The notes beneath the pieces are model-generated. The model was not told the DNA's origin. It searched no databases and saw nothing but the letters and a program-made list of their open reading frames with translations. DNA of 64,000 nucleotides from Oscillospiraceae bacterium (GTDB lineage Bacteria; Bacillota; Clostridia; Oscillospirales; Ruminococcaceae): NCBI GenBank assembly GCA_022768245.1, contig JALEMR010000056.1, positions 1 through 64,000 on the forward strand, in the 5' to 3' direction. Of this stretch, positions 4,481 through 45,668 are shown one piece after another. The position numbers and the translations under genes were made by a program. Position 1 is the stretch's first letter. Each line of letters begins with the position of its first letter.

Positions 4481-6514
4481 TTACAGTCTGAATGTACCGA
4501 TAAGCTTCTTAAGCATGCCTGCCTGTCCCGAGAGCTCCTCGGAGGCAGCAGCGCTTTCCTCGGCTGTAGCGGAGTTGGTCTGGACAACATTCGATATCCT
4601 GGTGATATCCTCGTTTATCTTTATCACCATATCTGCCTGACCTGCGCCCGATTCGGCAATAGCTTCAACGATCTTCTTTAACTGTTCCGTGTATTCTGCC
4701 AATGTGTTCACAGCGTCGGCAGTCTGAGCAGTAATATCCGAACCGATGTTTACTGCCTCAGCGGAGCTGTCGATAAGTCGGGCAGTATCGCCGACAGCCT
4801 CTGCAGATCTTGCCGCAAGATTTCTCACCTCGTCGGCAACAACTGCAAAGCCCTTGCCCGCTTCTCCCGCACGGGCAGCTTCGACAGCCGCATTAAGCGC
4901 AAGGATATTCGTCTGAAATGCGATATCCTCGATCGCCTTGATGATATTGCCTATCTTGTCGGAGGAGCTGCTTATATTAGTCATAGCCTCGGTAAGGCTG
5001 TTCATTTTATTATTCACGTCGGTAAGATAAGATGATGTGCTGTTCATCAGCTTGTGGGCTTCGGTACAGTTATCCAGATTTGCTTTTACCTTCACCTCGA
5101 TGTTCTCAAGACTTTTTGCAAGCTCTTCAATGGAGACTGTCTGTTCAACGGTACCCTTTGACAATGTCTGGGCTCCCGCAGCGACCTGACCCGAGCCGGA
5201 ATTTACCTGATCTGCCGCCGAATAGATATTGTTCAGCACGTTCGACAGCTTGTTTTTGATAGCGTCAAGATCGTCGGACAGCGCCTTGAAATCGCCTATG
5301 TAGCAGGTCTTGTTCAGAGTGGTGTCCACAGCAAAATTTTCATCTGCCATTTCACCGAGGATACGTCCGATATCGTTCGTAACATTTTTCAGAGAAAGAC
5401 AGAGCATATTCACAGCGTTTGCTATGCTGCCTATCTCGTCCTTTCTGAAAACAAATTTTTCGACAGTATTCGCCGAGTCAAGCTGCAGATTGCTGAGATC
5501 GACAACTGCATTTTCAACGGTCTTAAGGGGAGCTATCATCGCTCTTACCACGAAATATACAACAGCGGTAAGAAGCACAAGGCATACCCAAAAGATGACT
5601 ATCAGCACAGCTCTGAGCCGTCTTACGGAAGCAAGCACCTCCGAGGACTTATCGGATAAAATAAATACCCAGCCCTGTTCGCTCAGACTGTTATATGCGG
5701 CAATATTTTCAAGACCGTTTTCATCTCTGTAATTTATCGAACCGCATATATCTTCCGCCTGACCCTTTACCTGTCCGATAATATCCGTTACAAAGCCTTC
5801 CTCTGCAATTGTGGTGATCTTTTCGATATCGGGGTGGAAAATGTATTCTCCCGTATTGACGTTGACCAGATAATACTGCGCTTCCGACAAGCCGTCAAGA
5901 GGAAGCTCGTTCAGCTTTTCGACAAGACCGCTTGTGAAGATGGCTACTCCTCCGAAACCGATAGGATTTCCGTCATCTCCTCTGACAGCCTTATACATTG
6001 AAATTACTTGATTGCCGCTGGCGGGAGAGATTATTATGCCCGTGTTATATACGCCCTCTGCTGCAAGCATAGCATCATGAAGCGGCTTGCGCTTCGCTTC
6101 ATCAGGACGAGTGACTAAACCCACCGCACCGGAATTTGTATGAGTAAGTGTTGTTGTGTCCCAGCTGCTGGCATAAATGCCCTCAAGGTTGGCGACATCC
6201 TTTCCGAAATATTCCGTATATTCCTGTGCAGCGGCAAAATACTCCTCGTTTGACGGGTCACGGAGAAGGTCACAGATCTGTTCCGCCTTAAGATACGCTG
6301 TGAGAGTGTCCTCTGTGGAGCGGATGTAATTGCTGATTATCTCCGAACGGTCGATAGCTGCTGTCTGCATATTATTGACCGCATTATCATGGGCAGAGGA
6401 CGAGACCGAGCTGTTTATCACCAGAAAGAGAATGGTAAACACAGCAAATTGTACAGCTAAAACGGAAAGAGATATTTTTATCCCCAATCCGCAGTAATTT
6501 CGGTTCTTATTCAT
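4481..6514 (-). CDS. Methyl-accepting chemotaxis protein
   Basis: Transmembrane chemoreceptor of 677 residues. An N-terminal membrane helix (about 12-34) is followed by a ~250-residue extracellular dCache-like sensor, a second membrane helix (about 300-322), a HAMP-like linker with an [12 protein letters not shown] segment, and a long cytoplasmic coiled coil. The conserved signalling tip reads [20 protein letters not shown], followed by [16 protein letters not shown]. It should signal through CheA/CheW, which lie outside this window. Ribosome site GGGAGG precedes the ATG. It is divergent from the LysR gene and shares a symmetrical promoter with it. The ligand is unknown. There is no C-terminal pentapeptide; the protein ends IGTFRL. 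Confidence 0.93.
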
Positions 6515-6551
6515 TTTTACCTCCCGAATTCTGAAAAAAATCGTATTTCTA

Positions 6552-6585
6552 TTGCAATTATAGTTTCTGTATGATATAATTGCAT
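6552..6585. promoter_or_regulatory. Symmetrical overlapping divergent promoters (mcp / lysR)
   Basis: Plus strand: TTGCAA (6552-6557), 17-bp spacer, TATAAT (6575-6580), driving the LysR gene. Minus strand: ATGCAA (6580-6585), 17-bp spacer, TATAAT (6557-6562), driving mcp. Both are generated by one perfect inverted repeat, TGCAATTATA (6553-6562) and TATAATTGCA (6575-6584). Only one polymerase can occupy it at a time. The dyad could also be the LysR-family binding site. Confidence 0.75.
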
Positions 6586-6667
6586 AGTATACAGCTTATA
6601 TATAAATATGTGTATTTCGGTTGTTCAAACCCCTTTGCCGAAAACACAGAAAGGCAGTCGATACAGC

Positions 6668-7540
6668 ATGGAAATAAATCAGATAAAACAATTCAGAGTA
6701 ATAGCACGGACAGAAAGCATATCCAAAGCGGCAGAGCTGCTGTTTGTTGCACAGCCGTCATTGAGCCAGACGCTCAAACGTCTTGAGACCGAGCTTGGAA
6801 CACCGCTTTTCGAAAGGCGCGGAAGAAGGATAGTTCTTAACGGCGCAGGAAAGATCTTTCTGAAATACTGCGATGAAATCGTTTCCGCACTGGACAGCGC
6901 CGAAAAGGAGATCGGCGAATTTATAGGCAGCGAAAAAAGCGATATATACATTATTGTTGAATCTACGTCGCTTATGGTACTTGAGGTCGCAGAAAAAATG
7001 AGAAAACAATATCCATGGTCTCTCCCCCATTTTTATCATGGCTTCTGCGATGACTGGGATCTGAAGATATGTTCGGATATCTGTCCCGACTGCGGAAGTT
7101 CGTCAAAGGTCGTAATTGAGGAGCCTATCGGTATATTAATGCCCGAAGGTCATCCTCTTGCCTTAAAGGATACAATATGCAAAAAGGACATTGAAGCCTG
7201 TGATCTTCTGAGTCTGAGCACATCGGACGAGTTAACAAAGCATGTGGCTCATTTCTGCTCGAAAGCCGATTTCAAGCCAAACATCACGATGTATGTTGAC
7301 TCCCCGCCGGTAATGACTGAGCTGCTGAAAAGAAATTTCGGCATTGCTTTTGCACCGGAGTACACCTGGTACAGCTATTATGAAAACGCACTGATATTCA
7401 AGCCCATTGAGGATATGCCGATGCGGCAGTTCGTACATCTTGTGATGAACGACAAAAAGCATATCACCAAGAGTGTAATGCGCTGCTATGATGCCATTTC
7501 GAAATTCTATATGGAGTACGCTCAGAAATTCGGCGTATAG
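6668..7540 (+). CDS. LysR-family transcriptional regulator
   Basis: 290 residues. The N-terminal winged helix-turn-helix (about 1-60: MEINQIKQFRVIARTESISK, AQPSLSQTLKRLE, GTPLFERRGRR) is typical. The C-terminal LysR effector-binding domain is recognisable from about 90 on (EEPIGILMPEGHPLA, LLKRNFGIAFAPEYT), but the first half of that domain is short and contains CSDICPDCGSS. That gives a small Cys cluster (CxxxCxxC) not usual for the family; it might bind metal or sense redox. The ATG at 6668 is chosen because of the AAAGGCAG site upstream and because the family N-terminus begins there. Divergent from mcp; target unknown. Confidence 0.88.
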   Translation: MEINQIKQFRVIARTESISKAAELLFVAQPSLSQTLKRLETELGTPLFERRGRRIVLNGAGKIFLKYCDEIVSALDSAEKEIGEFIGSEKSDIYIIVESTSLMVLEVAEKMRKQYPWSLPHFYHGFCDDWDLKICSDICPDCGSSSKVVIEEPIGILMPEGHPLALKDTICKKDIEACDLLSLSTSDELTKHVAHFCSKADFKPNITMYVDSPPVMTELLKRNFGIAFAPEYTWYSYYENALIFKPIEDMPMRQFVHLVMNDKKHITKSVMRCYDAISKFYMEYAQKFGV

Positions 7541-22815: not shown

Positions 22816-25800
22816 ATGGAAATCTTAAACGATTACGGGAAATTCAGGGAACACTGCGCCGCTTTCAAGGACGAATTCATGGAAAAGTATCTCCCCGAGG
22901 GAGAGCTGTTCTGTCATCCTTTGACAAAGGGGCTCATATACGCCCCCGCCTCCGACGACGAGGCAAAAAGCAACGATGCCACTATCTGCCGCTTATCGGA
23001 TATGATGCTTATGTCCGAGGACGGCGAGACCGACTGGATGCCTTTCAATATCGCAAAGGCAAGAGAGATCGCTGCCGCCAACGAACACATCTTCCTGTCC
23101 GATCTGCTGTTCAGAACGTCTTTTATCGCCCACGACTGGATGATCGACGGCAAGCACGATCAGATGATCGTCAGCGAACAGTACATGAAGGAGCACAACA
23201 AGCCTTATGCTCCCGTCACTCCTCTCACAAATCAGAAAATGAAGATAAAAAAGATAATCAACGAGGACTTCTGGAAGCAGGGCACCCTTGAGGCTCCCGT
23301 TTCTATCTCCTTTGAGGATCTGTCCGCGTCTCTTGACGATTTTTCTGCGGAAAAGCTGGAGAAATTCCCCGTTATTTCCGAGATATCCGAGCATACCATA
23401 ACCGTCGGAGAAGCTTCCGCCAAGGTATCCGCAGACAGCGCAAAGGCTGCGGTGCTGAGGAATTCTCTCTCCGTCGTTTCCGAGCTCAAGGCGAAAATGG
23501 ATCTGGTGTCTCCCCTGCTGAAGGCTATCGGCATGGGAATGACTGCGGCAGGCTATTCCATCAAGTTCTTAGTTGCAGTGCTGAATAAAAACGGCGTTGA
23601 GATAAACGGCGCTCAGTTCAGAAATAATTTCTTCGACGCCGAGGTGAAAAAGCTTCCCGCCGAACATTCCGTTGACGACGAGCTTAAAGCGGCAAAGACT
23701 GCTACTATTGCGGCGTTTGCTGCAAACGGAAAGCTGTCCGCAGATAACAACACCAACACCGATGCCGAGTACAACGAAAAGCTCCGCGCTATCGAGACCT
23801 CTTCCCTCACCAAGGACGAGCTGCTCTCCCGCGCTGTGGCTCTGCTCTCCGAAAAGCCCGCCGACAGAGCGGTATTCAAGCTGCTTTACTCCAATTTCAG
23901 CGCGAACGCCGACGATATCTCCGAGGCGGAGGAATTCTGGTTCGGCAATAAGGCAAACTACTCCGACGATGAGCTGAACATTCATCTGACAAAGCTCTAC
24001 ATCCCCGCTGACACTGTCGGCGAAAAGGGCGAGTATGTATGCGGCTTCCCCAAGGCTAAGCTCATCTATGAGGAGCTTGAAGCTGCGGCTGATAAGTATC
24101 ACTTCGCAGACTGCCCCGCTGCTGTAAATCTGAAAAATTACATCGACGACGAGGACAAGAAATCCCGCACCTTCAACGGAACGGTGTTCGACTCCGCCGA
24201 GGATATGGCTAAGGCTGTCAGAAACGAAGCCGAGCTGGCTAAGCTCTGCACCGACCTTTCCGCTCTTAACAGGGACGAGCTGAAAAAGCTCAGAAAATAC
24301 ATATTCGACTCCACTGCCGACGACAAGACCAAGGCTAAATACATCGTCAAGGTGAAGCTGGCGGAAAACTCCGCAGAGGACAGCGAGCTCAAACAGCTCA
24401 CCCTCTCGCTGCCGCTGATGAAGCCGGACGAGGTCACCGCTCTTATCGAAAAGCTGAAGGCAGCCGAGTACGACGATACCGTTAAAAAACCCTACATCGC
24501 TTCTGCCGAGGACAGGCTCATCTCCGCTCAGGCAGACGAGCTTTCCGAAAAATTCAAGGAGCTTGACAAGAAGTCTGCTGCCGAGATCGACGCTCTCGTT
24601 AAGGAGACCGACTCCGACAGATACTGCACTATGCTGAAAAAGCATTTCCTGCGCAGGGCGGACGACGCAAAGAACGTTCTCGCAAGAAAGGATCTGGACG
24701 CTCTCTGCGCCGGAATGGAAGCCTTCGACAAGACAAAGCTTGCCGAGCTTCGCAAAAAGGTGGAGGAAAAGAACTATCCCTCCGCAGTTTCTGCACGCTA
24801 TCTCAATAAAATATCCGCTCTTACTGCGGAATACGACCGCAGGGAGGTCCGCGAGGTATTCGGAAAGGTGTCCTCCGCTTCCAAGGAGGAGCTGGACAAG
24901 CTCCGCGAGATCATCAACTCGGGCAAGTACGCTACCGAGCTTACCGACCCCTACATCGACCGCATCGCAGAGCGCGAGACCGCTCTCCGTTACGAGGAAT
25001 TCGAAAACAGATGCAAGACCATTCCTACTATGGACAAGGAGGCTCTTGCTGCGATAAAGGCGGAATTTACTGGCGGAAAATATCCTGCCGAGATCACCGA
25101 CAAGTATTCGCCCGATATCATTATCCGTGAAAACGATCTCGAAAAGCAGGAGATCGCCGACCTTTGCAAGGATATCCCCACAATGAAGCGCCCCGAGCTG
25201 AAAAAGCTCTCCGAGACGCTGTCCGATACAAAGTACAACTCCGAATTCACCGCGCCCTACTTCGACAAGATCAAGGAAAGAGAAGCCGCTGCGGAAAAAG
25301 AGGAGATCGAAGAGCTCTGCAAGAATATTCCCACAATGAAGGACGAGGAGCTGAAAAAGCTGTCCGAGGAGCTGTCCGATACAAAGTTCAATGCAGAGTA
25401 CACAGCACCTTATTTCGACAAGATCAAGGCGAGAAAGGTCGAGCTTGAAAAGTCCGAGATCGCCGAGCTTTGCAAGGATATCGCTTCCATGAAGCGTGAG
25501 GAGCTGAAAGCCCTCTCCGAAAAGCTCGCCGACCCCAAGTACAACAAGGAATATACCACAGAATATATCGCAAAGATCAAGGAGAGAAATCTTCAGCTTG
25601 ATAATCTTGAAGTTGACGAGGCATGCAAGGATATCGCAAAAATGGACAGAACCGCTCTTAAGTCGCTCTCCGAAAAGATATCCGACGAGAAGTACAGCAA
25701 GGAATATACCGCCAAGTATTTCGACAAGATCAAGGCAAGAGAGACCGAGCTTGACAAGTCCGAGCTTACCGAGCTTACCAAGAACGTCGATAAGCTGAAA

Positions 25801-27885
25801 AAGAACGAGCTTGAAAAGCTTACCGCCGATATCAACGAAAAGTACTCCAAGGAGGTCTCCGCGCCCTTTATCGAGAAGATACGTGCAAAGGAGATATCTC
25901 TGATGAAGGCGGAGCTGGAAAATCTCTGCAAGAATATCCCCTCCACTCCCCGCCCCGAGCTCTCCAAGCTTAAGGAGGCTCTTAAGAGCGACGACTTCGA
26001 CAAGGAGCTGTCCGCTAAGTACATCGCTCAGATCGAGGAGCGCGAAAATGCTCTTATCAAGACCGAGCTCCAGAATCTCTGCAAGAATATCGAGACCGCT
26101 CCCAAGGATAAGCTCCTTGAGGTAAAGCTCAGGATCACCGATACTCCCGAGTACAAGGAACAGGGCAAGCAGTACATCGACAAGATAGATACCCGCCTTA
26201 AGAAGCTCGACAAGGAAGAATTCGACAAGATGATGTCCTCCATAAACAGCATGGACTTCGACGCTCTGGAAAAATTCAGCGAGGAACTGGAAAAGCGCAA
26301 GCCTACTCTTGAACCCGCGAAGTATTCCGATACCGTCAAGCTCATCGACGCGCGCTTCGACAAGCTGGAAAACGACGAGCTTTCCAAGCTCTGCGGAAAT
26401 ATCCCCGAGCTTAAGATCGAACAGATCACCTCTATCCTCAACACTATCGAGGACAAGGGCTTCAAGAACAGCAACGCTCAGCCCTATATCAAGAAGCTCA
26501 ACGACGCAGCTAATCAGCTGTATATCAAGGATCTGTCGGGTCTTACCGAAAATCTCGGCGGACTCAACAAGGCGGCTCTTCTCGATATCTGCAAGAAGAT
26601 CGCCGGTTACGGCAACGGCTGCCCCGACGACCTCAAAAAGCGCTACGACGGCATCGTCCGCAAGAAGATACGCGAGCTGGACGACAAGCGCGTTGAACAG
26701 GTATGCCGCAATCTCGGCAGCATGACCAAGAACGAGACCTTGAAGATAATCGCTCAGATACGCGAAATGGATATCGACGACGACGCTAAGAAGCGCCACA
26801 TCTCCACCTGCGAGAACCATATCCTCAGCAATAAAAAGTCGGAGAGAGACGCTTATACTCTTAAGCTTTCCGCAGATATGATCGAGGCTTCTATCAACCA
26901 GAGCCACGTTATCACCGGTGATTCTCCCACATTTGACAGCACTGCTCTCAAAATGCAGAACAGCTTCGCTAAAATGGGACAGTTCGACCTTCCTGTGCTG
27001 CTCCACACCGTAACTCAGGGCAATCCCGACGAGGGTTTCATATTTACTCTGGAATACGTGTTCTGCCGCAACAAGAACGGTCTTATCTCCAAAAAGGCTG
27101 TGGACGACATCGACCGCTTCGTCGGCAAGAAGGGTCTCCTGGGCGGCGGTTCCCTTAAGCTTGAAGAGAAAAACGGCTCCTCTACCGAGCTTCCTATCGG
27201 TATCAAGGGCGCTCCCATCGAAGGCACCGCTGTGGTCCTCAACAAGCTGCTGACCTACATCCAGAACAGCCGTGCCGAGGAACGCAGAAAGGATCTGGAA
27301 GCCAACGCCGCAAGAAATGATACCTTTATGGATCTCACCGCCGACGCTCCCATACCTCCCGCTGTGCCTAAGCCCGCAGAAGCTCCCAAGCCCGCAGCCG
27401 AAGCTCCCGCTCCCAAGCCTGCGGAAGCTCCTAAGCCCGCTGCACCCGCTAAGCCCGCAGAAGCTCCTAAACCCGTCGATGTGAGCGTTGATATCAAGCC
27501 TATCAAGCACATCGAAACAACGGCTCCCATTGCTTCAAATGCGGATATCAAGGACATCAAGCCTATCAAGCCCATCACCGGCGAAGAAGTCAAGCCTGTT
27601 GAGGTTCCCAAGGCAGCAGAGGCTCCCAAGCCTGTTGAAGTACCTAAGGCAGAGGCTCCCAAGCCTGTTGAAGTACCTAAGGCAGAGGCTCCCAAGCCTG
27701 CGGAGGCTCCCAAGCCCGCGGAGGCTCCCAAGCCCGCAGAGGCTCCCAAGCCCGCTCCTCAGCCTGCTCCCGCTCCGTCATCGGCTAAGCCGATAAAGAT
27801 GAAGTTCTGCGACCAGTGCGGAGCTAAGATAATGAGCGAATCCGCTAAGTTCTGCAGCGAATGCGGAAACAAGATAGCAAGATAA
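22816..27885 (+). CDS. Giant repeat protein with C-terminal zinc ribbon, function unknown
   Basis: 1689 residues, no signal peptide, Lys/Glu-rich, cytoplasmic. N-terminal part about 1-470: a folded region starting MEILNDYGKFREHCAAFKDE, with a hydrophobic stretch (LLKAIGMGMTAAGYSIKFLV) near 235-255. About 472-1340: some 17 degenerate units of ~48-50 residues, each with the pattern ELxxLCKxIxxMxxxELxxL, then KYxxEYTAxYxxKIxxRExxL; units 7-10 are closest to each other. About 1345-1500: a non-repeat alpha/beta domain (MGQFDLPVLLHTVTQGNPDE, IFTLEYVFCRNKNGLISKKA). About 1514-1655: PAEAPKP linker. 1665-1685: zinc ribbon CDQCG...CSECG. ATG 10 bases after AAAGGAATG. Strong promoter and terminator: monocistronic. 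I do not recognise the family; a scaffold role is a guess. Confidence 0.85.
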   Translation: MEILNDYGKFREHCAAFKDEFMEKYLPEGELFCHPLTKGLIYAPASDDEAKSNDATICRLSDMMLMSEDGETDWMPFNIAKAREIAAANEHIFLSDLLFRTSFIAHDWMIDGKHDQMIVSEQYMKEHNKPYAPVTPLTNQKMKIKKIINEDFWKQGTLEAPVSISFEDLSASLDDFSAEKLEKFPVISEISEHTITVGEASAKVSADSAKAAVLRNSLSVVSELKAKMDLVSPLLKAIGMGMTAAGYSIKFLVAVLNKNGVEINGAQFRNNFFDAEVKKLPAEHSVDDELKAAKTATIAAFAANGKLSADNNTNTDAEYNEKLRAIETSSLTKDELLSRAVALLSEKPADRAVFKLLYSNFSANADDISEAEEFWFGNKANYSDDELNIHLTKLYIPADTVGEKGEYVCGFPKAKLIYEELEAAADKYHFADCPAAVNLKNYIDDEDKKSRTFNGTVFDSAEDMAKAVRNEAELAKLCTDLSALNRDELKKLRKYIFDSTADDKTKAKYIVKVKLAENSAEDSELKQLTLSLPLMKPDEVTALIEKLKAAEYDDTVKKPYIASAEDRLISAQADELSEKFKELDKKSAAEIDALVKETDSDRYCTMLKKHFLRRADDAKNVLARKDLDALCAGMEAFDKTKLAELRKKVEEKNYPSAVSARYLNKISALTAEYDRREVREVFGKVSSASKEELDKLREIINSGKYATELTDPYIDRIAERETALRYEEFENRCKTIPTMDKEALAAIKAEFTGGKYPAEITDKYSPDIIIRENDLEKQEIADLCKDIPTMKRPELKKLSETLSDTKYNSEFTAPYFDKIKEREAAAEKEEIEELCKNIPTMKDEELKKLSEELSDTKFNAEYTAPYFDKIKARKVELEKSEIAELCKDIASMKREELKALSEKLADPKYNKEYTTEYIAKIKERNLQLDNLEVDEACKDIAKMDRTALKSLSEKISDEKYSKEYTAKYFDKIKARETELDKSELTELTKNVDKLKKNELEKLTADINEKYSKEVSAPFIEKIRAKEISLMKAELENLCKNIPSTPRPELSKLKEALKSDDFDKELSAKYIAQIEERENALIKTELQNLCKNIETAPKDKLLEVKLRITDTPEYKEQGKQYIDKIDTRLKKLDKEEFDKMMSSINSMDFDALEKFSEELEKRKPTLEPAKYSDTVKLIDARFDKLENDELSKLCGNIPELKIEQITSILNTIEDKGFKNSNAQPYIKKLNDAANQLYIKDLSGLTENLGGLNKAALLDICKKIAGYGNGCPDDLKKRYDGIVRKKIRELDDKRVEQVCRNLGSMTKNETLKIIAQIREMDIDDDAKKRHISTCENHILSNKKSERDAYTLKLSADMIEASINQSHVITGDSPTFDSTALKMQNSFAKMGQFDLPVLLHTVTQGNPDEGFIFTLEYVFCRNKNGLISKKAVDDIDRFVGKKGLLGGGSLKLEEKNGSSTELPIGIKGAPIEGTAVVLNKLLTYIQNSRAEERRKDLEANAARNDTFMDLTADAPIPPAVPKPAEAPKPAAEAPAPKPAEAPKPAAPAKPAEAPKPVDVSVDIKPIKHIETTAPIASNADIKDIKPIKPITGEEVKPVEVPKAAEAPKPVEVPKAEAPKPVEVPKAEAPKPAEAPKPAEAPKPAEAPKPAPQPAPAPSSAKPIKMKFCDQCGAKIMSESAKFCSECGNKIAR
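27595..27765 (+). repeat. In-frame tandem repeats coding the Pro/Lys/Ala linker
   Basis: Units of 33 bp (coding PKPVEVPKAEA) and 15 bp (coding PAEAPK) recur nearly identically inside the repeat-protein gene. Such DNA can change copy number by slippage without breaking the frame, altering linker length before the zinc ribbon. Confidence 0.75.
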
Positions 27886-38032: not shown

Positions 38033-38140
38033 AAAAAAATCCTTTCAGCCCTCCAATCGACAGTATTTTCGGGGAGGAGCATTTATAATAGATCATGTGA
38101 TGAACATTTTCTCATCAACAACAAATTGTGGCTGTATATT

Positions 38141-38170
38141 ATTATATCACTTTTTGACACGAATGTCAAA
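38141..38170 (-). promoter_or_regulatory. NYN-gene promoter overlapping a Spo0A-box-like dyad
   Basis: Minus strand TTGACA (38164-38169), 17 bp, TATAAT (38141-38146). The -35 box is one arm of the dyad TTTGACA-CGAA-TGTCAAA (38153-38170). Each arm fits TGTCRAA, the core of the Spo0A box. The spoIIGA start lies 28 bp to the right, so one site could repress the NYN gene and act on spoIIGA. Confidence 0.6.
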
Positions 38171-38197
38171 TCATTCCGCAGGAAAGGCGGCGGTACT

Positions 38198-39028
38198 ATT
38201 ACTGTTTACATAGACGTGCTTATCATAACCTCGGTATATATAGATTTTTTCCTGATAAAGGCCACCGCGGCAGTGCTCCGAAGACCTCCTCCAACCGCAG
38301 GGAGAGCCGTCCTCGGCGCCTTGGCGGGGAGCCTGACATCGCTGATACTGCTGCTTCCCTCGCTGAATAATGTGCTGCTGTTTTTGCTCAAGACCGCGTC
38401 CGCCGCTGTGATAGTTTACATATCCATGGGCTGCGAGAGCATATGGAAATTCATACGTGATATCATAGTCTTTACTGCGGTCAGCCTTTGCTTTGCGGGG
38501 GTGTGCTTTTTTCTGTCGGAAACACTGGCGGAGGAGCTGATCTTCTGCCGCAACAGTACGGTGTATTTTAATATTTCCCCGATAGTCCTCATATTATCCA
38601 CAGCGGCTGCCTACGGCGGGATATGCCTTTTCAGACGATTTTCCGACGCCGCTCCCACCGGCGGGAAATACACTGTCACCGTATACACGGACAAGGACAG
38701 CTTTTCGTCCTTCCCCGCAGTCGCCGATACGGGCAACAGCCTTACCGACGTTATCACAGGGATACCTGTGATAGTCTGCGGAAGAGAACAGCTGCCCGAC
38801 ATCGCAGCAATGCTCCCCGAGGACGGCGTATCACTTCCGAAGGGCTGGCGGCTCATACCATGCAATACCGCGGGCAGCTCGGGACTTATCCCCATTTTCC
38901 GCCCCCAGTCGGTATATATCCGCTGCGGCGAGACGGGCCGCACCTGCACTGCGGACGTGTATATCGGCATTTCCTCACAGCCAATGAAATACGGCGTATT
39001 CAGTCCGTCTGTTCTCAGAAGTATGTAG
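38198..39028 (+). CDS. spoIIGA: Sigma-E processing peptidase SpoIIGA
   Basis: 276 residues. About five N-terminal membrane helices (VYIDVLIITSVYIDFFLIKA to about residue 140) precede a C-terminal aspartic-protease half with the catalytic motif VADTGNSLTD and the flap-side region IPCNTAGSSGLIPIF. In sporulation it cleaves pro-sigma-E at the mother-cell face of the septum after a signal from SpoIIR. Followed by sigE at 17 bp, the canonical pair. The best start is an ATT at 38198, with AGGAAAGGCGG upstream and the family N-terminus T-V-Y-I-D-V right after. The only in-frame alternative with the first helix is a TTG 72 bp upstream without a ribosome site. Confidence 0.9.
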   Translation: MTVYIDVLIITSVYIDFFLIKATAAVLRRPPPTAGRAVLGALAGSLTSLILLLPSLNNVLLFLLKTASAAVIVYISMGCESIWKFIRDIIVFTAVSLCFAGVCFFLSETLAEELIFCRNSTVYFNISPIVLILSTAAAYGGICLFRRFSDAAPTGGKYTVTVYTDKDSFSSFPAVADTGNSLTDVITGIPVIVCGREQLPDIAAMLPEDGVSLPKGWRLIPCNTAGSSGLIPIFRPQSVYIRCGETGRTCTADVYIGISSQPMKYGVFSPSVLRSM

Positions 39029-39045
39029 AACCGAAAGGAGTAATT

Positions 39046-39765
39046 ATGATAAAGTTAAAAGCGCTTATCAAACGATATATCGGATCGCTGCTGAAGGCGT
39101 TGGGGCTGTACGGCTCCGAAGTATACTATATCAACGGACCCGATACCCTTCCGCCGCCGCTGTCCCTCGCCGAGGAGGAGGAGACCTTCCGTCTGCTGCA
39201 GACCGACCCCGACAAGGCTAAGGATATACTTATCGTACATAATCTGCGGCTGGTGGTATATATCGCCAAGAAGTTCGAATCTACGGGGATAGGCGTGGAG
39301 GATCTCATCTCCATAGGCACTATCGGGCTTATCAAGGCGGTCAACACCTTCTGCCCCCAGAAGAATATCAAGCTTGCCACCTATGCTTCGAGGTGCATTG
39401 AAAATGAGATACTGATGTTCCTGCGGAAGACCTCGCAGACGAAAAACGAGATATCCATCGACGAGCCGCTGAATATCGACTGGGACGGCAACGAGCTTCT
39501 GCTGTCGGATATCCTCGGCACGGAAAACGACGCGGTATCCTCGGGGATAGAGGCCTCCGCCGAACGGCAGATGCTCCGCAGAGCCGTAGGCGAGCTGCCC
39601 GAACGGGAACGGGAGATAATGGAGATGCGCTTCGGTCTGCGAAACGGCAGAGAGCTTACTCAGAAGGAGACAGCCGACATCATCGGGATATCGCAGTCCT
39701 ACATATCGAGGCTTGAAAAGAAGATAATCCGCAAGCTCCGCGAAGAACTGCAGGAGATACTGTAA
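39046..39765 (+). CDS. sigE: RNA polymerase sporulation sigma factor SigE (pro-sigma-E)
   Basis: 239 residues, colinear with Bacillus SigE. The amphipathic pro-sequence (MIKLKALIKRYIGSLLKALG) leads to EVYYINGPDTLPPP, where SpoIIGA is expected to cut between the tyrosines. Region 2 reads NLRLVVYIAKKFESTGIGVE, DLISIGTIGLIKAVNTFCPQ and LATYASRCIENEILMFLRK; region 4 ends ETADIIGISQSYISRLEKKI. It directs early mother-cell transcription. ATG 5 bases after AAAGGAG. sigG, usually next, is not here; a tRNA gene follows. Confidence 0.97.
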   Translation: MIKLKALIKRYIGSLLKALGLYGSEVYYINGPDTLPPPLSLAEEEETFRLLQTDPDKAKDILIVHNLRLVVYIAKKFESTGIGVEDLISIGTIGLIKAVNTFCPQKNIKLATYASRCIENEILMFLRKTSQTKNEISIDEPLNIDWDGNELLLSDILGTENDAVSSGIEASAERQMLRRAVGELPEREREIMEMRFGLRNGRELTQKETADIIGISQSYISRLEKKIIRKLREELQEIL

Positions 39766-39988: not shown

Positions 39989-41203
39989 ATGTATCGGCTG
40001 AAAAAATACGAACACACAATATATGCAAGCTATATCGGCTACATAACGCAGGCTGTGGTGAACAATTTTGCTCCCCTGCTTTTCCTCACCTTTGCAAAGG
40101 ACTACGGGCTCACCCTCGATAAGATAACCTTTATCACCACCATTAATTTTGCTGTGCAGCTTATCGTCGATCTGCTGTCCTCGAAGTTCGCAGACAGGAT
40201 AGGACTGCGCGTCTGCATAGTTTCCGCTCATATTTTCTCCGCGGCGGGACTGGCGGGAATGGCAGTTCTCCCCGTGATACTCCCCGACCCTTATGCGGGA
40301 CTTATCATATCGGTGGTGCTGTACGCAATTGGCGGCGGACTTATCGAAGTGCTGATAAGCCCTATCGTCGAAGCCTGTCCCACCGAGAAAAAGGAAGCTG
40401 CCATGAGCCTGCTCCACTCCTTTTACTGCTGGGGACACATGGGAGTAGTGCTCATGTCCACAGCGTTTTTCAGGCTCTTCGGAGTCGATAACTGGCACAT
40501 TTTAGCGGTGATATGGGCGCTTGTTCCGCTTTTCAATGTGGTGTATTTTATGCTTGTGCCGCTGTACGAGATATCCTCGGGAGAGGAAAGAGTGCCTGTG
40601 CGGAGCATGCTCCGTCAGCCGCTGTTTTTACTGATACTGGTGATAATGATATGCGCGGGCGCCTCCGAACAGGCGGTCAGTCAGTGGACCTCGGCATTTG
40701 CGGAATCTGCGCTGAACGTCTCAAAGACTGTGGGCGACCTGGCGGGGCCCTGCTGCTTTGCGCTTTTCATGGGGCTGTCAAGAGCGCTCTACGGGAAATA
40801 CAGCGACAGGCTCCCCCTGAACAGGTTCATGCTTTTCAGCGCGGTGCTGTGCATCTGCTGCTATTTGATGATATCGCTTTCTCCGAGCCCACTTTGGGGA
40901 CTCATCGGCTGTGCAGTATGCGGCTTTTCGGTGGGGATATTCTGGCCGGGCACCTTCAGCGCCGCCGCAAAGAAATTCCCCCGCGGAGGAACGTCAATGT
41001 ACGCTCTTATGGCGCTGGCGGGAGATATTGGCTGCTCTGCGGGGCCTACCGCAGCGGGACTTACGGCAAACGCCGCAGGAGGCGACCTGAAAGCGGGTAT
41101 CGGCGCGGCTGTTGTTTTTCCTGCGGTCATTCTTATCGGGATAGTTTTGCTGGGACGCGGAACGCAGAAAGGGAATGCTGACGATCAGAAAAAAAATACT
41201 TGA
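39989..41203 (+). CDS. MFS transporter
   Basis: 404 residues, about 12 membrane helices, major facilitator superfamily. The loop 2-3 region has SKFADRIGLRVCIVSAHIFS (a D-R-x-G motif-A relative) and the second half has GLSRALYGKYSDRLPLNRFM. Sugar/drug-type (FucP/YbjJ-like) carriers have this layout, but the substrate cannot be told. The ATG at 39989 follows GGGAGAA; an upstream TTG is less likely. The stop TGA at 41201-41203 lies inside the -35 box of the following tRNA promoter. No partner gene is adjacent. Confidence 0.88.
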   Translation: MYRLKKYEHTIYASYIGYITQAVVNNFAPLLFLTFAKDYGLTLDKITFITTINFAVQLIVDLLSSKFADRIGLRVCIVSAHIFSAAGLAGMAVLPVILPDPYAGLIISVVLYAIGGGLIEVLISPIVEACPTEKKEAAMSLLHSFYCWGHMGVVLMSTAFFRLFGVDNWHILAVIWALVPLFNVVYFMLVPLYEISSGEERVPVRSMLRQPLFLLILVIMICAGASEQAVSQWTSAFAESALNVSKTVGDLAGPCCFALFMGLSRALYGKYSDRLPLNRFMLFSAVLCICCYLMISLSPSPLWGLIGCAVCGFSVGIFWPGTFSAAAKKFPRGGTSMYALMALAGDIGCSAGPTAAGLTANAAGGDLKAGIGAAVVFPAVILIGIVLLGRGTQKGNADDQKKNT

Positions 41204-41228
41204 CAACATCCGAAAAATATGCTATAAT
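41200..41228 (+). promoter_or_regulatory. tRNA-Leu promoter overlapping the MFS stop codon
   Basis: TTGACA (41200-41205), 17 bp, TATAAT (41223-41228). The TGA of TTGACA is the stop codon of the transporter gene. Confidence 0.88.
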
Positions 41229-41240
41229 TTTATAGTATCA

Positions 41241-41327
41241 GCCGGTATGATGGAATTGGCAGACGTGACGGACTCAAAATCCGTTGGTAGCGATACCGTG
41301 TCGGTTCGACCCCGACTACCGGCACCA
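41241..41327 (+). tRNA. tRNA-Leu (anticodon CAA)
   Basis: Class II tRNA: acceptor GCCGGTA/TACCGGC, anticodon stem ACGGA/TCCGT with loop CTCAAAA, a long variable arm (TGGTAGCGATACCG), T arm TCGGTTCGACCCCGA, and an encoded ACCA end. Confidence 0.96.
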
Positions 41328-41493: not shown

Positions 41494-41522
41494 TTGCAAT
41501 TTATCAAAATATATAGTATAAT
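41494..41522 (+). promoter_or_regulatory. rlmB promoter
   Basis: TTGCAA (41494-41499), 17 bp, TATAAT (41517-41522). Confidence 0.78.
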
Positions 41523-41563
41523 AGATATTATGAAATTCTATGCTTTTTTCGGGAAGGTATTTT

Positions 41564-42463
41564 ATGAACGAATATAATAAAAAGAAAAACGACCGCTTCG
41601 GCTCGCAGTCATGGGACAGCTCCCGTCAGCGCCGCAGCACCGACAGGAAAAATTCCTTCGATAAGGAAGAGGATAATTCACGCGGCAGGAGCTTTGACCG
41701 CCGCTTCGACGACGAGGACGCTCCCGAGGACAACGGGCTTATTATCGGAAGAAATCCCGTTATCGAGGCTCTTAAGGCAGACAAGCCCATAGATACGCTG
41801 TTCGTTAATGCGGACGCGGGCGGCTCTATCGGCATGATATCCCGCATGGCTCGGGACAAGGGCATCGTCATCAAGCAGGTCAGCGACCAAAAGCTCACCT
41901 CCATGTCACGGGGCGCTTCCCATCAGGGCTGCATCGCCGTGGGTGCCTGCGCGGAATATGTTTCCGTGGAGGATATCCTGAACATTTCAAAACAGAAGGG
42001 CACAGAGCCTTTCATCATAATCTGCGATGAGATAGAGGACCCTCACAATCTGGGTGCGATAATCCGTACCGCTGAAGCAGCGGGCGCGGATGGCATTATC
42101 ATCCCCAAAAGACGGAGCGCTTCGCTGAACTTCACCGTCAACAAGACCTCCGCAGGCGCCGCAAGCTGGGTCCCCGTGGCAAGAGTGCCCAATCTGGGAG
42201 CGGCTATCGACGTGCTTAAGGAAAACGGCGTATGGATATACGGCACCGACGCTTCGGGCGAAAGCTATACCGAGGTCTCCATGACGGGCGCTGTGGGGCT
42301 GGTCATCGGCTCCGAGGGCTTCGGCATGGGACGGCTCATCAGGGAAAAATGCGACTATCTCTTAAGTCTGCCCATGAACGGCAGGATAACCTCTCTTAAC
42401 GCTTCCGTGGCGGCGGGTATCTTCATGTACGAGGCTGTCCGTCAGAGAAATGCGAAAAAATGA
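41564..42463 (+). CDS. rlmB: 23S rRNA (guanosine-2'-O-)-methyltransferase RlmB/TrmH family
   Basis: 299 residues. A charged, disordered N-terminal extension (about 1-55: KKKNDRFGSQSWDSSRQRRS) precedes the L30e-like substrate-binding domain (LIIGRNPVIEALKADKPIDT) and the SPOUT (knotted) methyltransferase domain with the family motifs DEIEDPHNLGAIIRTAEAAG, TSAGAASWVPVARVPNL, LVIGSEGFGMGRLI and LPMNGRITSLNASVAAGIFM. It methylates a 23S rRNA guanosine 2'-O with SAM; the exact position (G2251 for RlmB) is assumed from the family. The first gene of a probable two-gene unit with the P-ATPase-like gene 36 bp downstream. Confidence 0.92.
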   Translation: MNEYNKKKNDRFGSQSWDSSRQRRSTDRKNSFDKEEDNSRGRSFDRRFDDEDAPEDNGLIIGRNPVIEALKADKPIDTLFVNADAGGSIGMISRMARDKGIVIKQVSDQKLTSMSRGASHQGCIAVGACAEYVSVEDILNISKQKGTEPFIIICDEIEDPHNLGAIIRTAEAAGADGIIIPKRRSASLNFTVNKTSAGAASWVPVARVPNLGAAIDVLKENGVWIYGTDASGESYTEVSMTGAVGLVIGSEGFGMGRLIREKCDYLLSLPMNGRITSLNASVAAGIFMYEAVRQRNAKK

Positions 42464-42499: not shown

Positions 42500-45400
42500 T
42501 TGTCGGACGATAAATTTTCACTTGACGAATTATTGAATGAATACCACGAGGAAACATCCTCGGAATTTGACCTTGATTCGATACTGAACGGCTACCCCGA
42601 GATAGAACAGGAGCCCTATGAGCCCGAAATGGAAAAGCGCCGCATGGAGCTTATCAAAAAGGAGATAATCAGCGGCGACTATGAACATAAATATCTCGGC
42701 GACGACTACAAGGACGTTATCGACGAGGAAAAACGCCGCAAGGAGGACAAGGCACGCAAAATAGCCGAGTTTTCAAGGGCAATGGAAAAGCGTGCCGCCG
42801 AGGAGGAAGCTGCTGAAGCTGCCGCTCCCGAGAAGAAAAGCTCTCTTTCGGATATGTTCCGTGAAGCGGTCAATTCCTCGGAGGGCGCTCTTCACGAGGG
42901 GACGGGCTCTGCTCCCGTTAAGACGGCGGAACGCTCCGCTCCCGTTACCGAGGATAAGCCCGCTGAGACGGCAGCTCCTAAGAAGTCTGCCGATGATAAA
43001 CCGAAACGCCGCAAAAACAGGATAGCCGAGGAGGAACAGGACGAGTTCCAGCGCAAATACGACGAGCTCAAACGACGGGGACTGGGCGTGACAAGCAAGT
43101 CGGAAAGACGTGCGTCCGCCGCTTCCGAGGCATTCGACGAGGTCGTTTCCGAAATGGAGAAGTCCGCAGGTCCCGGACGCACCTTCTCCGAAAAGGCGGA
43201 GGAGGACAGCCCCTACGGCGAGAATGACGATTTCTCCGAAATACGCCGCAGGAAAAAGACTCCTGCCGTAATAACCGACAAGTCGGGGCTGGTTTCCTAT
43301 ACCCAGTTCAACGAGGAAGCGGACGAGGAGATACGCTCCGCAGACGACCCCCTCGACAGTATCACGGGCAATTCCATGGACAAGATACTCAACGAGTACG
43401 AAAAAAGCAAGACCTTTACCGCCGCTACCCTTAAGGTCGGCGACAGGACCAATACCATATCCGACATCTTCGACAAGCTTTTAAAGCCCGAAGAACCCGA
43501 GGAGACCGAAAACGGCAAAAAGCCCTCCACCAACACCACCGAGCTTATGGAGAGCATGAAAAAAGCCAAAAAGGAACGTCTCAGCAAGACCTCCCATGTC
43601 CCTCCCATTGAGCGGACCATGATATCCGATCTGGACCTGAAACAGCTGGACGATAAGATAATCCGCGACGATACCTCGCCTATCTCTCCCCTTGACGAAA
43701 ACGAGGAGGCGGAGCTCTTAAATGATCTGCAGGAACGCCGCAGCAAGCGGATAAAGGATTTCGTTTTCCTCGGCGACGAGGAGGAGTCCGACGATAACGA
43801 CGATAACGAGGAATCCTCTATCGACGATTTCGAAAATATGGACGACGCCCTCTCTATCGCAGAGGATATCGCTCAGTCAAAAGGCTCTATGATAGTCCGT
43901 CTGCTCATACTTATCGCATGCTTTGTGATATCGCTGTACATAACCGTCTCAAACGAGCTCAGCGCTCCCGTATTTGAATTCGTCAGCATGGTGGACGAGC
44001 CGGGAACGTATCTTTTCGTCAACACGATAATCGGAATGGTCGCCGCATTTGCTTCATATAACGCTATCACGGTGGGACTTGCAAGGCTTTTCACTCTCCG
44101 TGCAAACTGCGACAGCTTAGCGGCTCTTACGTCGATAATCACTATCGCTCTGTCAATGGCGGGGCTGCTCGATACCAACTTAGTCCGCGACGGCATACTC
44201 CACGAGTACGTTCCTCTGGGGATAGCCGCGCTGATATTCAACACTCTGGGCAAGCTGCTGCTGCTGAGCCGCACCCAGCGCAACTTCAAATACATCTCGG
44301 GTGATTACGACCACTGCGCTATGTTCACCGTAAAGGACGAGGAACAGGCGGAAGCCTTCACAAGAGGCGCTCTTACCGACTTCCCTACCCTGGCTTCCAT
44401 GCGCAGGACCGAAATGATATCCGACTTTATGAAGAATTCCTACTCGCCCGATATGTCCGACCGCTTCTGCAAGATGTTCGCTCCTATCATCATCATTGCT
44501 TCGCTGATTATCGGAGTTATCGGCGCGGCGGCAGGCCGGTCCGATTATGCAAACCGCTCCGTATATATCGGCTTGTCCGCATTTGTGGGCTGTCTCTGCT
44601 TATGCTCCTGCTATTCGTCTATGCTGATAGTCAATCTGCCCATGCAGAAGGCTTCCAAGAAATACAGCCAGATGCAGGGCGCTGTTATCGGCTTTGACGC
44701 TGTGGACGAGTTCTCCGATACCAACAGCATCATGGCGGACGCTCTGCAGCTTTTCCCGCAGGGCAGCGTATATCTTTCCAACATCAAGATATTCTCCGAC
44801 ACGAGGATAGATGAGGCTATCGTTGAGGCGGCAAGCCTTGCCTGCCGTTCCGACAGCATTATGAAGAATATGTTCTTCGACATAATCGGCGGAAAGACGG
44901 AGATGCTCAATCCCGTGGAAAGCTACATCTACGAGGATTCAATGGGTCTCTGCGGCTGGATAAACAACAAGCGTGTGCTTCTCGGAAACCGCAAGCTTAT
45001 GGAAAATCACAGCATCGACGGCATGCCCTCTCCGCAGAAGGAAAGGCAGTACACAAACGGCGGCGCAAGCATTCCCGTTTATCTTTCCATTTCGGGCGAG
45101 CTTTCCGCGATGTTCATAATCAATCTGACGCCCGTTCCCGAAGTGGCGCAGACCTTACGGGAGCTTGACAGAAAGCATATCAAGGTCATACTCCGCTCGG
45201 TGGATTCCTCCGTTTCGGTGGAGCGCATGGCGCAGATGTTCGACATCTCCCCCGATACGCTGAAGATACTCCCTTTCAGAGAGCATTCCAGCTATGAGCA
45301 GGTGACCTCCTACACGCCCAAGCAGAGCGCAACGCTCGCATGCTCGGGAAGATTCGCCACCTTTGCTTCCCTTATCTTAAGCACAAAGAGGATCCGCTCC

Positions 45401-45574
45401 ACCGTGTCCATAGGCATTGCGATACAGGCTATATCCATTCTGCTGGGAATACTTTTATCGGCTCTGCTGGTGATATTCAAGGCATATACTGACCTTTCCA
45501 CGCTGATGATACTGGTATATAACCTGGTGTTCACGGTTATATACATGCTGGTCAATCTGTTTAAGAAGGTATAG
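42500..45574 (+). CDS. P1B-type-ATPase-like membrane pseudoenzyme with long acidic N-terminus
   Basis: 1024 residues. 1-460 is cytoplasmic, charged and largely disordered (EEEAAEAAAPEKKSSLSDMF). From 464 it has four membrane helices (about 464-484, 503-526, 541-560, 571-591), a ~65-residue soluble insert, two helices (661-680, 688-714; the second reads GCLCLCSCYSS where pumps have CPC), a ~250-residue soluble part, and two last helices (968-993, 999-1021). That is the P1B ATPase plan. The soluble part keeps an N-domain-like NNKRVLLGNRKLM and P-domain-like strands, but DKTGT is MADALQLFP (Asp at 747), TGD is RSVD, and GDGxND is absent. Transport seems impossible. The start codon is TTG with GGAGG upstream. 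I know no name for this family. Confidence 0.75.
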   Translation: MSDDKFSLDELLNEYHEETSSEFDLDSILNGYPEIEQEPYEPEMEKRRMELIKKEIISGDYEHKYLGDDYKDVIDEEKRRKEDKARKIAEFSRAMEKRAAEEEAAEAAAPEKKSSLSDMFREAVNSSEGALHEGTGSAPVKTAERSAPVTEDKPAETAAPKKSADDKPKRRKNRIAEEEQDEFQRKYDELKRRGLGVTSKSERRASAASEAFDEVVSEMEKSAGPGRTFSEKAEEDSPYGENDDFSEIRRRKKTPAVITDKSGLVSYTQFNEEADEEIRSADDPLDSITGNSMDKILNEYEKSKTFTAATLKVGDRTNTISDIFDKLLKPEEPEETENGKKPSTNTTELMESMKKAKKERLSKTSHVPPIERTMISDLDLKQLDDKIIRDDTSPISPLDENEEAELLNDLQERRSKRIKDFVFLGDEEESDDNDDNEESSIDDFENMDDALSIAEDIAQSKGSMIVRLLILIACFVISLYITVSNELSAPVFEFVSMVDEPGTYLFVNTIIGMVAAFASYNAITVGLARLFTLRANCDSLAALTSIITIALSMAGLLDTNLVRDGILHEYVPLGIAALIFNTLGKLLLLSRTQRNFKYISGDYDHCAMFTVKDEEQAEAFTRGALTDFPTLASMRRTEMISDFMKNSYSPDMSDRFCKMFAPIIIIASLIIGVIGAAAGRSDYANRSVYIGLSAFVGCLCLCSCYSSMLIVNLPMQKASKKYSQMQGAVIGFDAVDEFSDTNSIMADALQLFPQGSVYLSNIKIFSDTRIDEAIVEAASLACRSDSIMKNMFFDIIGGKTEMLNPVESYIYEDSMGLCGWINNKRVLLGNRKLMENHSIDGMPSPQKERQYTNGGASIPVYLSISGELSAMFIINLTPVPEVAQTLRELDRKHIKVILRSVDSSVSVERMAQMFDISPDTLKILPFREHSSYEQVTSYTPKQSATLACSGRFATFASLILSTKRIRSTVSIGIAIQAISILLGILLSALLVIFKAYTDLSTLMILVYNLVFTVIYMLVNLFKKV

Positions 45575-45632: not shown

Positions 45633-45668
45633 TAGCCCGGGAACCAAAAATTCCCGGGCTTTACTATT
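45633..45668. terminator. Terminator between convergent genes
   Basis: AGCCCGGGAA (45633-45642) and TTCCCGGGCT (45651-45660) form a perfect stem; TTACTATTTC follows on the plus strand. It separates the pseudoenzyme gene and the convergent kinase gene. Confidence 0.78.

Follow-up and report, generated by a model that had tools for sequence, protein, structure and literature searches.

An order-wide family of P1B-ATPase-like membrane proteins without the pump motifs, encoded beside rlmB

P-type ATPases are defined by the DKTGT motif, and in the P1B pumps an HP motif contacts ATP. The P1B ATPases LpCopA from Legionella (3rfu/4bbj) and ZntA (4umv) share with the protein family described here the eight-helix plan, the fold and the order of the domains; the N-domain glycines and the Asp of the TGD motif are shared as well, and common descent is clear. 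In contrast to these pumps, the family is devoid of DKTGT, TGES, CPC, HP and GDGxND, its A domain is reduced to a remnant, a long tail carrying a short repeated motif takes the place of the metal-binding domains, and the gene is fixed beside rlmB. The closest known analogue, judged by its described features and not by sequence closeness, is the contested human protein TMEM94/ERMA, which has a P-type fold without TGES and has lost GDGVND. One group found TMEM94 to be without ATPase activity (PMC12134183), whereas another reported that the Mg2+ uptake of ERMA depends on Asp427 (PMC13322241). TMEM94/ERMA is, however, eukaryotic, has ten helices and keeps the DK pair in its DKQGI sequence, while the family has eight helices, no Lys at this place in any of 62 members and an Asp that is often replaced. 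With the Lys gone everywhere, the Asp gone in many members and the Mg loop deleted, the family appears from its alignment to have lost more than TMEM94/ERMA. KdpB, matched in our fold search, places a P-type fold inside a larger bacterial membrane assembly (KdpFABC), but it is catalytically active and has the partner genes kdpFAC, and no such partners were seen by the family gene. RlmB, the 23S rRNA G2251 2'-O-methyltransferase, is a soluble RNA methylase with no sequence relation to the pseudo-pump. We found no account in the literature of a bacterial P-type family that is catalytically dead, and the terms for such a family that were searched in one review (PMC10654040) returned none.

The gene lies in a window of 64,000 nucleotides, the whole stretch of DNA analysed, from an Oscillospiraceae bacterium, and its features are collected in Table 1. 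The open reading frame starts 36 nt 3' of rlmB, with an AGGAGG ribosome site ~7 nt 5' of the start codon. The N-terminal extension is rich in acidic and poor in hydrophobic residues (D+E 26%, K+R 16%, hydrophobic 22%).

Table 1. Positions of the pseudo-pump gene, its parts and associated features (window coordinates, except for the two sortase loci)
Feature	Position	Strand	Details and basis
rlmB, 23S rRNA 2'-O-methyltransferase	41540..42463	+	TIGR00186, 234.7 bits, cut-off 160
Promoter-like site before rlmB, 10/12	41494..41522	+	consensus match only
Pseudo-P1B-ATPase, full ORF	42500..45574	+	1024 aa, start TTG, stop included
N-terminal extension, ~461 aa	42500..43882	+	composition; length 0-900 aa among relatives
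Motif copy 1, FSLDELLNEY, residues 6-15, docking-like	42515..42544	+	sequence pattern
Motif copy 2, FDLDSILNGY, residues 23-32	42566..42595	+	sequence pattern
Motif copy 3, SMDKILNEY, residues 292-300	43373..43399	+	sequence pattern
P1B-like core	43883..45571	+	AlphaFold model, fold search, profile matches
Reduced A-domain remnant without TGES	44300..44450 (approximate; core residues ~140-190)	+	model, alignment
GCLCLCSCYSS in M4, at the CPC metal-site place	44594..44626	+	C-P-C positions = S-C-Y
DALQL at the DKTGT place	44738..44752	+	alignment; family consensus xxxLFPxGxVxLxxIK next
NNKRVLLGNRKLM, N-domain motif kept	44963..45001	+	its Gly in 62/62 members
SVD at the TGD place	45197..45205	+	Asp in 61/62 members; downstream GDGxND deleted
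Terminator-like hairpin, both strands	45634..45660	.	consensus match; shuffled sequence about as rich
Large sortase-domain membrane protein, acidic tail	L205 (G317:C3) 4857-7454	-	starts MSDNKFGFTVDDIIAEFDKKK
Large sortase-domain membrane protein, acidic tail	L289 (G108:C1) 4986-6425	-	SVDEIIADIDRKT near start

Three other regions of the window were also recorded. A 12/12 match to a sigma-70-type promoter, with a TG before the second hexamer, is found at 41200-41228, upstream of tRNA-Leu (41241-41327). At 38126-39765 a gene for a SpoIIGA-like protease is followed by one for a sigma-70-family factor; this is the usual arrangement of the sporulation pair SpoIIGA and SigE. On the plus strand, positions 22816-27885 hold an ORF of 1689 aa that contains tandem repeats, has a weak zinc ribbon at its C-terminus and matches no Pfam family above cut-off; antisense to it, an ORF of 1313 aa without a Pfam match is open on the minus strand (23569-27510).

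The core of the protein, formed by its last ~563 residues (462-1024), is homologous to heavy-metal (P1B) ATPases. LpCopA was matched by the single window sequence at 1e-16, and its sequence scored 7.5e-35 against a family profile made from 51 relatives; the family profile reached 99.7%, with 522 columns aligned, in a profile comparison with the window genome's own true CopA. The AlphaFold model of the core, obtained from 63 sequences (pLDDT 91.2, pTM 0.85), showed eight membrane helices ordered as in P1B ATPases, the chain running through MA, MB, M1, M2, the A-domain remnant, M3, M4, the P/N headpiece, M5 and M6. It reproduces the succession of four helices, insert, two helices, large soluble part and two helices from which the sequence-only reading had recognized a P1B-ATPase shape; the soluble insert of that reading does stand at the A-domain place, but it is a mere remnant of ~50 residues without TGES. 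Comparison with P-type ATPase structures, set beforehand as the test able to refute this reading, led to a P1B pump, the top solved-structure match being LpCopA 4bbj (E 5.9e-19, probability 1.00, TM 0.54 by query length). The modest TM-score and the large rmsd would fit a shifted relative placement of the modeled domains together with the missing parts. Chance resemblance to P1B ATPases is ruled out by the profile match and the fold-search E value together. The window protein stands above no curated Pfam cut-off, its best match being PF00702 (17.6 bits, cut-off 26.4), a model touched by 3 of 51 family members (at best E 6.4e-05), and a scan for related loci with the single protein as query gave no match.

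A closer inspection of the signature positions was carried out on an alignment of 62 relatives with two true P1B pumps of the window's own genome, CopA (L071) and a ZntA-like pump (L072), in both of which the motifs are intact. DKTGT is found in none of the 62; Asp occupies its first place in 37 and Lys its second in none, and the site now holds a family consensus with LFPxGxVxLxxIK. No aligned member has TGES at its place, and of the A domain only a remnant is left. The CPC site is complete in no member: its first Cys is seen in 2/62, its second lies outside the eight commonest residues and the Pro persists in 43/62. The His of the N-domain HP motif (SEHP) is absent throughout (0/62), and the GDGxND Mg-binding loop is a gap in all 62. 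What is retained comprises the TGD Asp (61/62) and two N-domain glycines, the second one of GxG (61/62) and that of the GN motif (62/62). From sequence alone, DALQL, SVD and the cysteine-rich M4 segment had been placed at DKTGT, TGD and CPC, GDGxND had been given as gone and an N-domain echo had been pointed out; the alignment agrees on each of these, GNRKLM being the retained echo, and the homologues with an intact DKTGT at the same place that were looked for did not turn up among the 62. The broader statement that every catalytic signature is lost holds for DKTGT, TGES, CPC and GDGxND but not for TGD, whose Asp is the sole catalytic-signature residue that stayed in the family. Likewise, Asp747 is kept in the window protein, but it is no feature of the family as a whole.

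The family thus combines the eight-helix P/N fold with the absence of every one of the pump features DKTGT, TGES, CPC, HP and GDGxND. As a homologue of an enzyme family whose catalytic residues, by the aligned positions, are missing in all orthologues, the protein qualifies as a pseudoenzyme. Since the same genome keeps two intact true P1B pumps, pumping is done elsewhere.

The family was found by profile search, with the presence line drawn at 1e-41 on the best E value per genome, in 387 of the 395 genomes sampled from the window's order (~98%) and in none of 392 genomes outside the order; the latter belong to a phylum sample (n=399) in which the seven matches below 1e-41 were all in the order. 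Class-wide sampling gave full-length members at 1e-95 to 1e-216, and the best value among 278 genomes outside the order, 1.1e-39, covered columns 190-475 only and corresponds to a true-CopA-like match, which leaves a sharp gap to the members, mostly below 1e-50. The named relatives are Ruminococcus, with R. bicirculans 80/3, and Oscillospiraceae MAGs, names that suggest Oscillospirales as the order. Nine genomes seemed to be family-negative. In two of them (G395 and G027) the sequence of the contig breaks off shortly after rlmB and the start of the motif-bearing gene, and since this start is visible, gene loss was rejected; the other seven have no RlmB above a curated cut-off that may not suit every lineage, and the pair may be missing there together, either by loss or through an assembly gap. 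What looked like a tandem copy in G399 proved to be a scaffold gap of N and no duplication.

In a joint tree, a branch with support 100 separates all 37 members included from 19 true P1B pumps. The dN/dS values over 40 close pairs are 0.02-0.06 for the core and about 0.03-0.16, mostly 0.05-0.16, for the N-terminal tail, and the frame is open in nearly all of the hundreds of family-bearing genomes. Low core values and presence in ~98% of the order together mark a maintained pseudoenzyme and no decaying pump; both the proposal that selection keeps the frame intact and the pseudoenzyme reading, which now draws on motif loss in 62 members, a single clade and purifying selection, came through. Since the parts needed for pumping are lost and the protein is nevertheless strongly preserved, a new and probably non-enzymatic job is indicated.

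The neighbourhood is constant on one side. In all 41 wide loci, drawn from many families of the order, rlmB stands immediately upstream on the same strand with a gap of -77 to 206 nt, and in further loci it is adjacent in 69 of 80, the remainder being nine contig ends and two odd frames. We infer that the two genes are co-transcribed. The promoter-like site before rlmB, in a region where such sites are no more numerous than in shuffles, could serve both, and a putative terminator-like hairpin 60 nt past the ORF, recognized by consensus match only, may close the unit against a convergent kinase gene. Downstream the neighbours vary, with LytR-CpsA-Psr, chemoreceptor and metabolic genes among them, and in part of the order an elongation-factor-G-like gene recurs frequently (loci L037, L040, L041, L044, L057, L061-L063 and L069). 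The surrounding gene clusters and the downstream genes that were examined showed no pump gene next to the family gene, and no linked regulator gene was found near it.

The N-terminal tail is presumed to be disordered and cytosolic, the latter by analogy with P1B topology. The ~460 acidic residues that had been noticed in front of the core are a property of the window protein, but among relatives the tail ranges from absent (L052) to ~900 residues. In most members, even those of distant families, the sequence opens with [FY]S[LIV]DDILAE, a short motif, or with near variants of it. A search of residues 1-80 for a fixed pattern of the motif was positive in 36 of 61 members, where shuffles predict 0.18; among close relatives 75 of 78 carry the motif, frequently twice, and the window protein carries it three times. 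It cannot be the sole function of the protein, because the L052 lineage (f10) has short members of 548 aa without the tail. Nor is it a widespread tag, an idea rejected on two grounds: over 1.9 of the 2.7 Mb of a single-contig relative (G108) the strict motif is confined to the pseudo-pump, and in 2006 other ORFs of the examined loci, truncated or split copies of the family gene aside, it was met in one sortase only. A looser near-start form in G108 retrieved the pseudo-pump, a few ordinary-looking proteins and one sortase-domain membrane protein, while a loose DNA pattern applied to whole genomes gave mostly noise, many genomes lying little above the backward control. The tags of the two large sortase-domain proteins (L205 and L289) resemble the pseudo-pump tags of their own genomes, and in a third genome (L156) a sortase gene is placed immediately 3' of the pseudo-pump gene. 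Because the first sortase came out of the motif search itself, this link is a lead and no proof.

In the scenario that we favour, a CopA-like P1B ATPase would have been present once in the ancestor of the order and would have lost phosphorylation, dephosphorylation and metal binding while the eight-helix body and the P/N headpiece were retained, giving rise to a catalytically dead, membrane-bound scaffold or regulator made together with RlmB. Its tail motif ([FY]S[LIV]DDILxE, one to three copies) most likely would dock a cytosolic partner. The separate parts of this scenario differ in strength. That the protein is a conserved non-pump is very probable; as to its role, that of a scaffold or regulator is somewhat favoured. 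The alignment suggests that it would carry out neither transport nor ATP turnover, although residual chemistry may persist where D747 (37/62) and the TGD Asp (61/62) are present. Docking of a cytosolic partner through the tail is suggested by the conserved motif. A doubtful, more specific version regards the motif as an address tag for an order-specific cytosolic receptor that would bring several membrane proteins, including the pseudo-pump and the large sortases, together in a single complex for envelope assembly, the dead pump being its membrane hub. Against the scenario as a whole it must be said that the sortase connection is based on two proteins and that the pairing with rlmB is possibly a mere operon habit.

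Two other roles for a dead pump are both improbable. The protein could be a subunit that pairs with, inhibits or targets a true pump, CopA or ZntA, in the same cell. A P1B ATPase above the curated cut-off was indeed present in 26 of the 28 family-bearing genomes checked, and the window's genome encodes two such pumps; this co-occurrence says little, because P1B pumps are near-universal in bacteria, and the gene paired with the family is rlmB and not a metal gene, no adjacent pump gene having been seen in the loci examined. Alternatively, the headpiece of a membrane sensor could bind a nucleotide or another ligand without hydrolysis and signal via the N-terminal tail. The retained TGD Asp (61 of 62) and N-domain glycines (61 and 62 of 62) speak for it, as does the reported binding of AMPPCP, with micromolar affinity, by TMEM94, which has no ATPase activity (PMC12134183). 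However, the His of the ATP-contacting HP motif and the metal cysteines have gone and no linked regulator gene was found; with the metal-site cysteines and the HP motif missing, a structural or scaffold role is more likely than metal or ATP sensing.

Continued transport, by unusual chemistry or along a passive pathway as claimed for human ERMA/TMEM94, is very unlikely. The precedent is the reported Asp427-dependent Mg2+ uptake by ERMA without TGES and GDGVND (PMC13322241), and more than half of the members (37/62) still place an Asp at the DKTGT site. ERMA keeps its DK pair, though, whereas in the family 25 of 62 members have another residue for the Asp and every member has one for the Lys; GDGxND has been deleted rather than substituted, and the CPC cysteines are absent. 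An ATP-driven device is likewise unlikely, since the phosphorylation site, the Mg loop and the HP motif are gone. Finally, decay of a pump gene, or an artefact of assembly, would account for the lost catalytic motifs, but this is refuted by the core dN/dS of the 40 close pairs, the frame that is open in nearly all of hundreds of genomes and the single old clade, and is hardly credible.

We return to a conserved and probably scaffolding or regulatory pseudo-pump as the preferred reading. What began as one odd gene widens to an order-wide family tied to rlmB, for which the Pfam library used has no model, and whose gene is nearly universal among Ruminococcus and its relatives, which are major gut bacteria. 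The family would be a clear bacterial example of a pump that became a non-enzyme, and a simpler system to work with than human TMEM94, whose activity is disputed.
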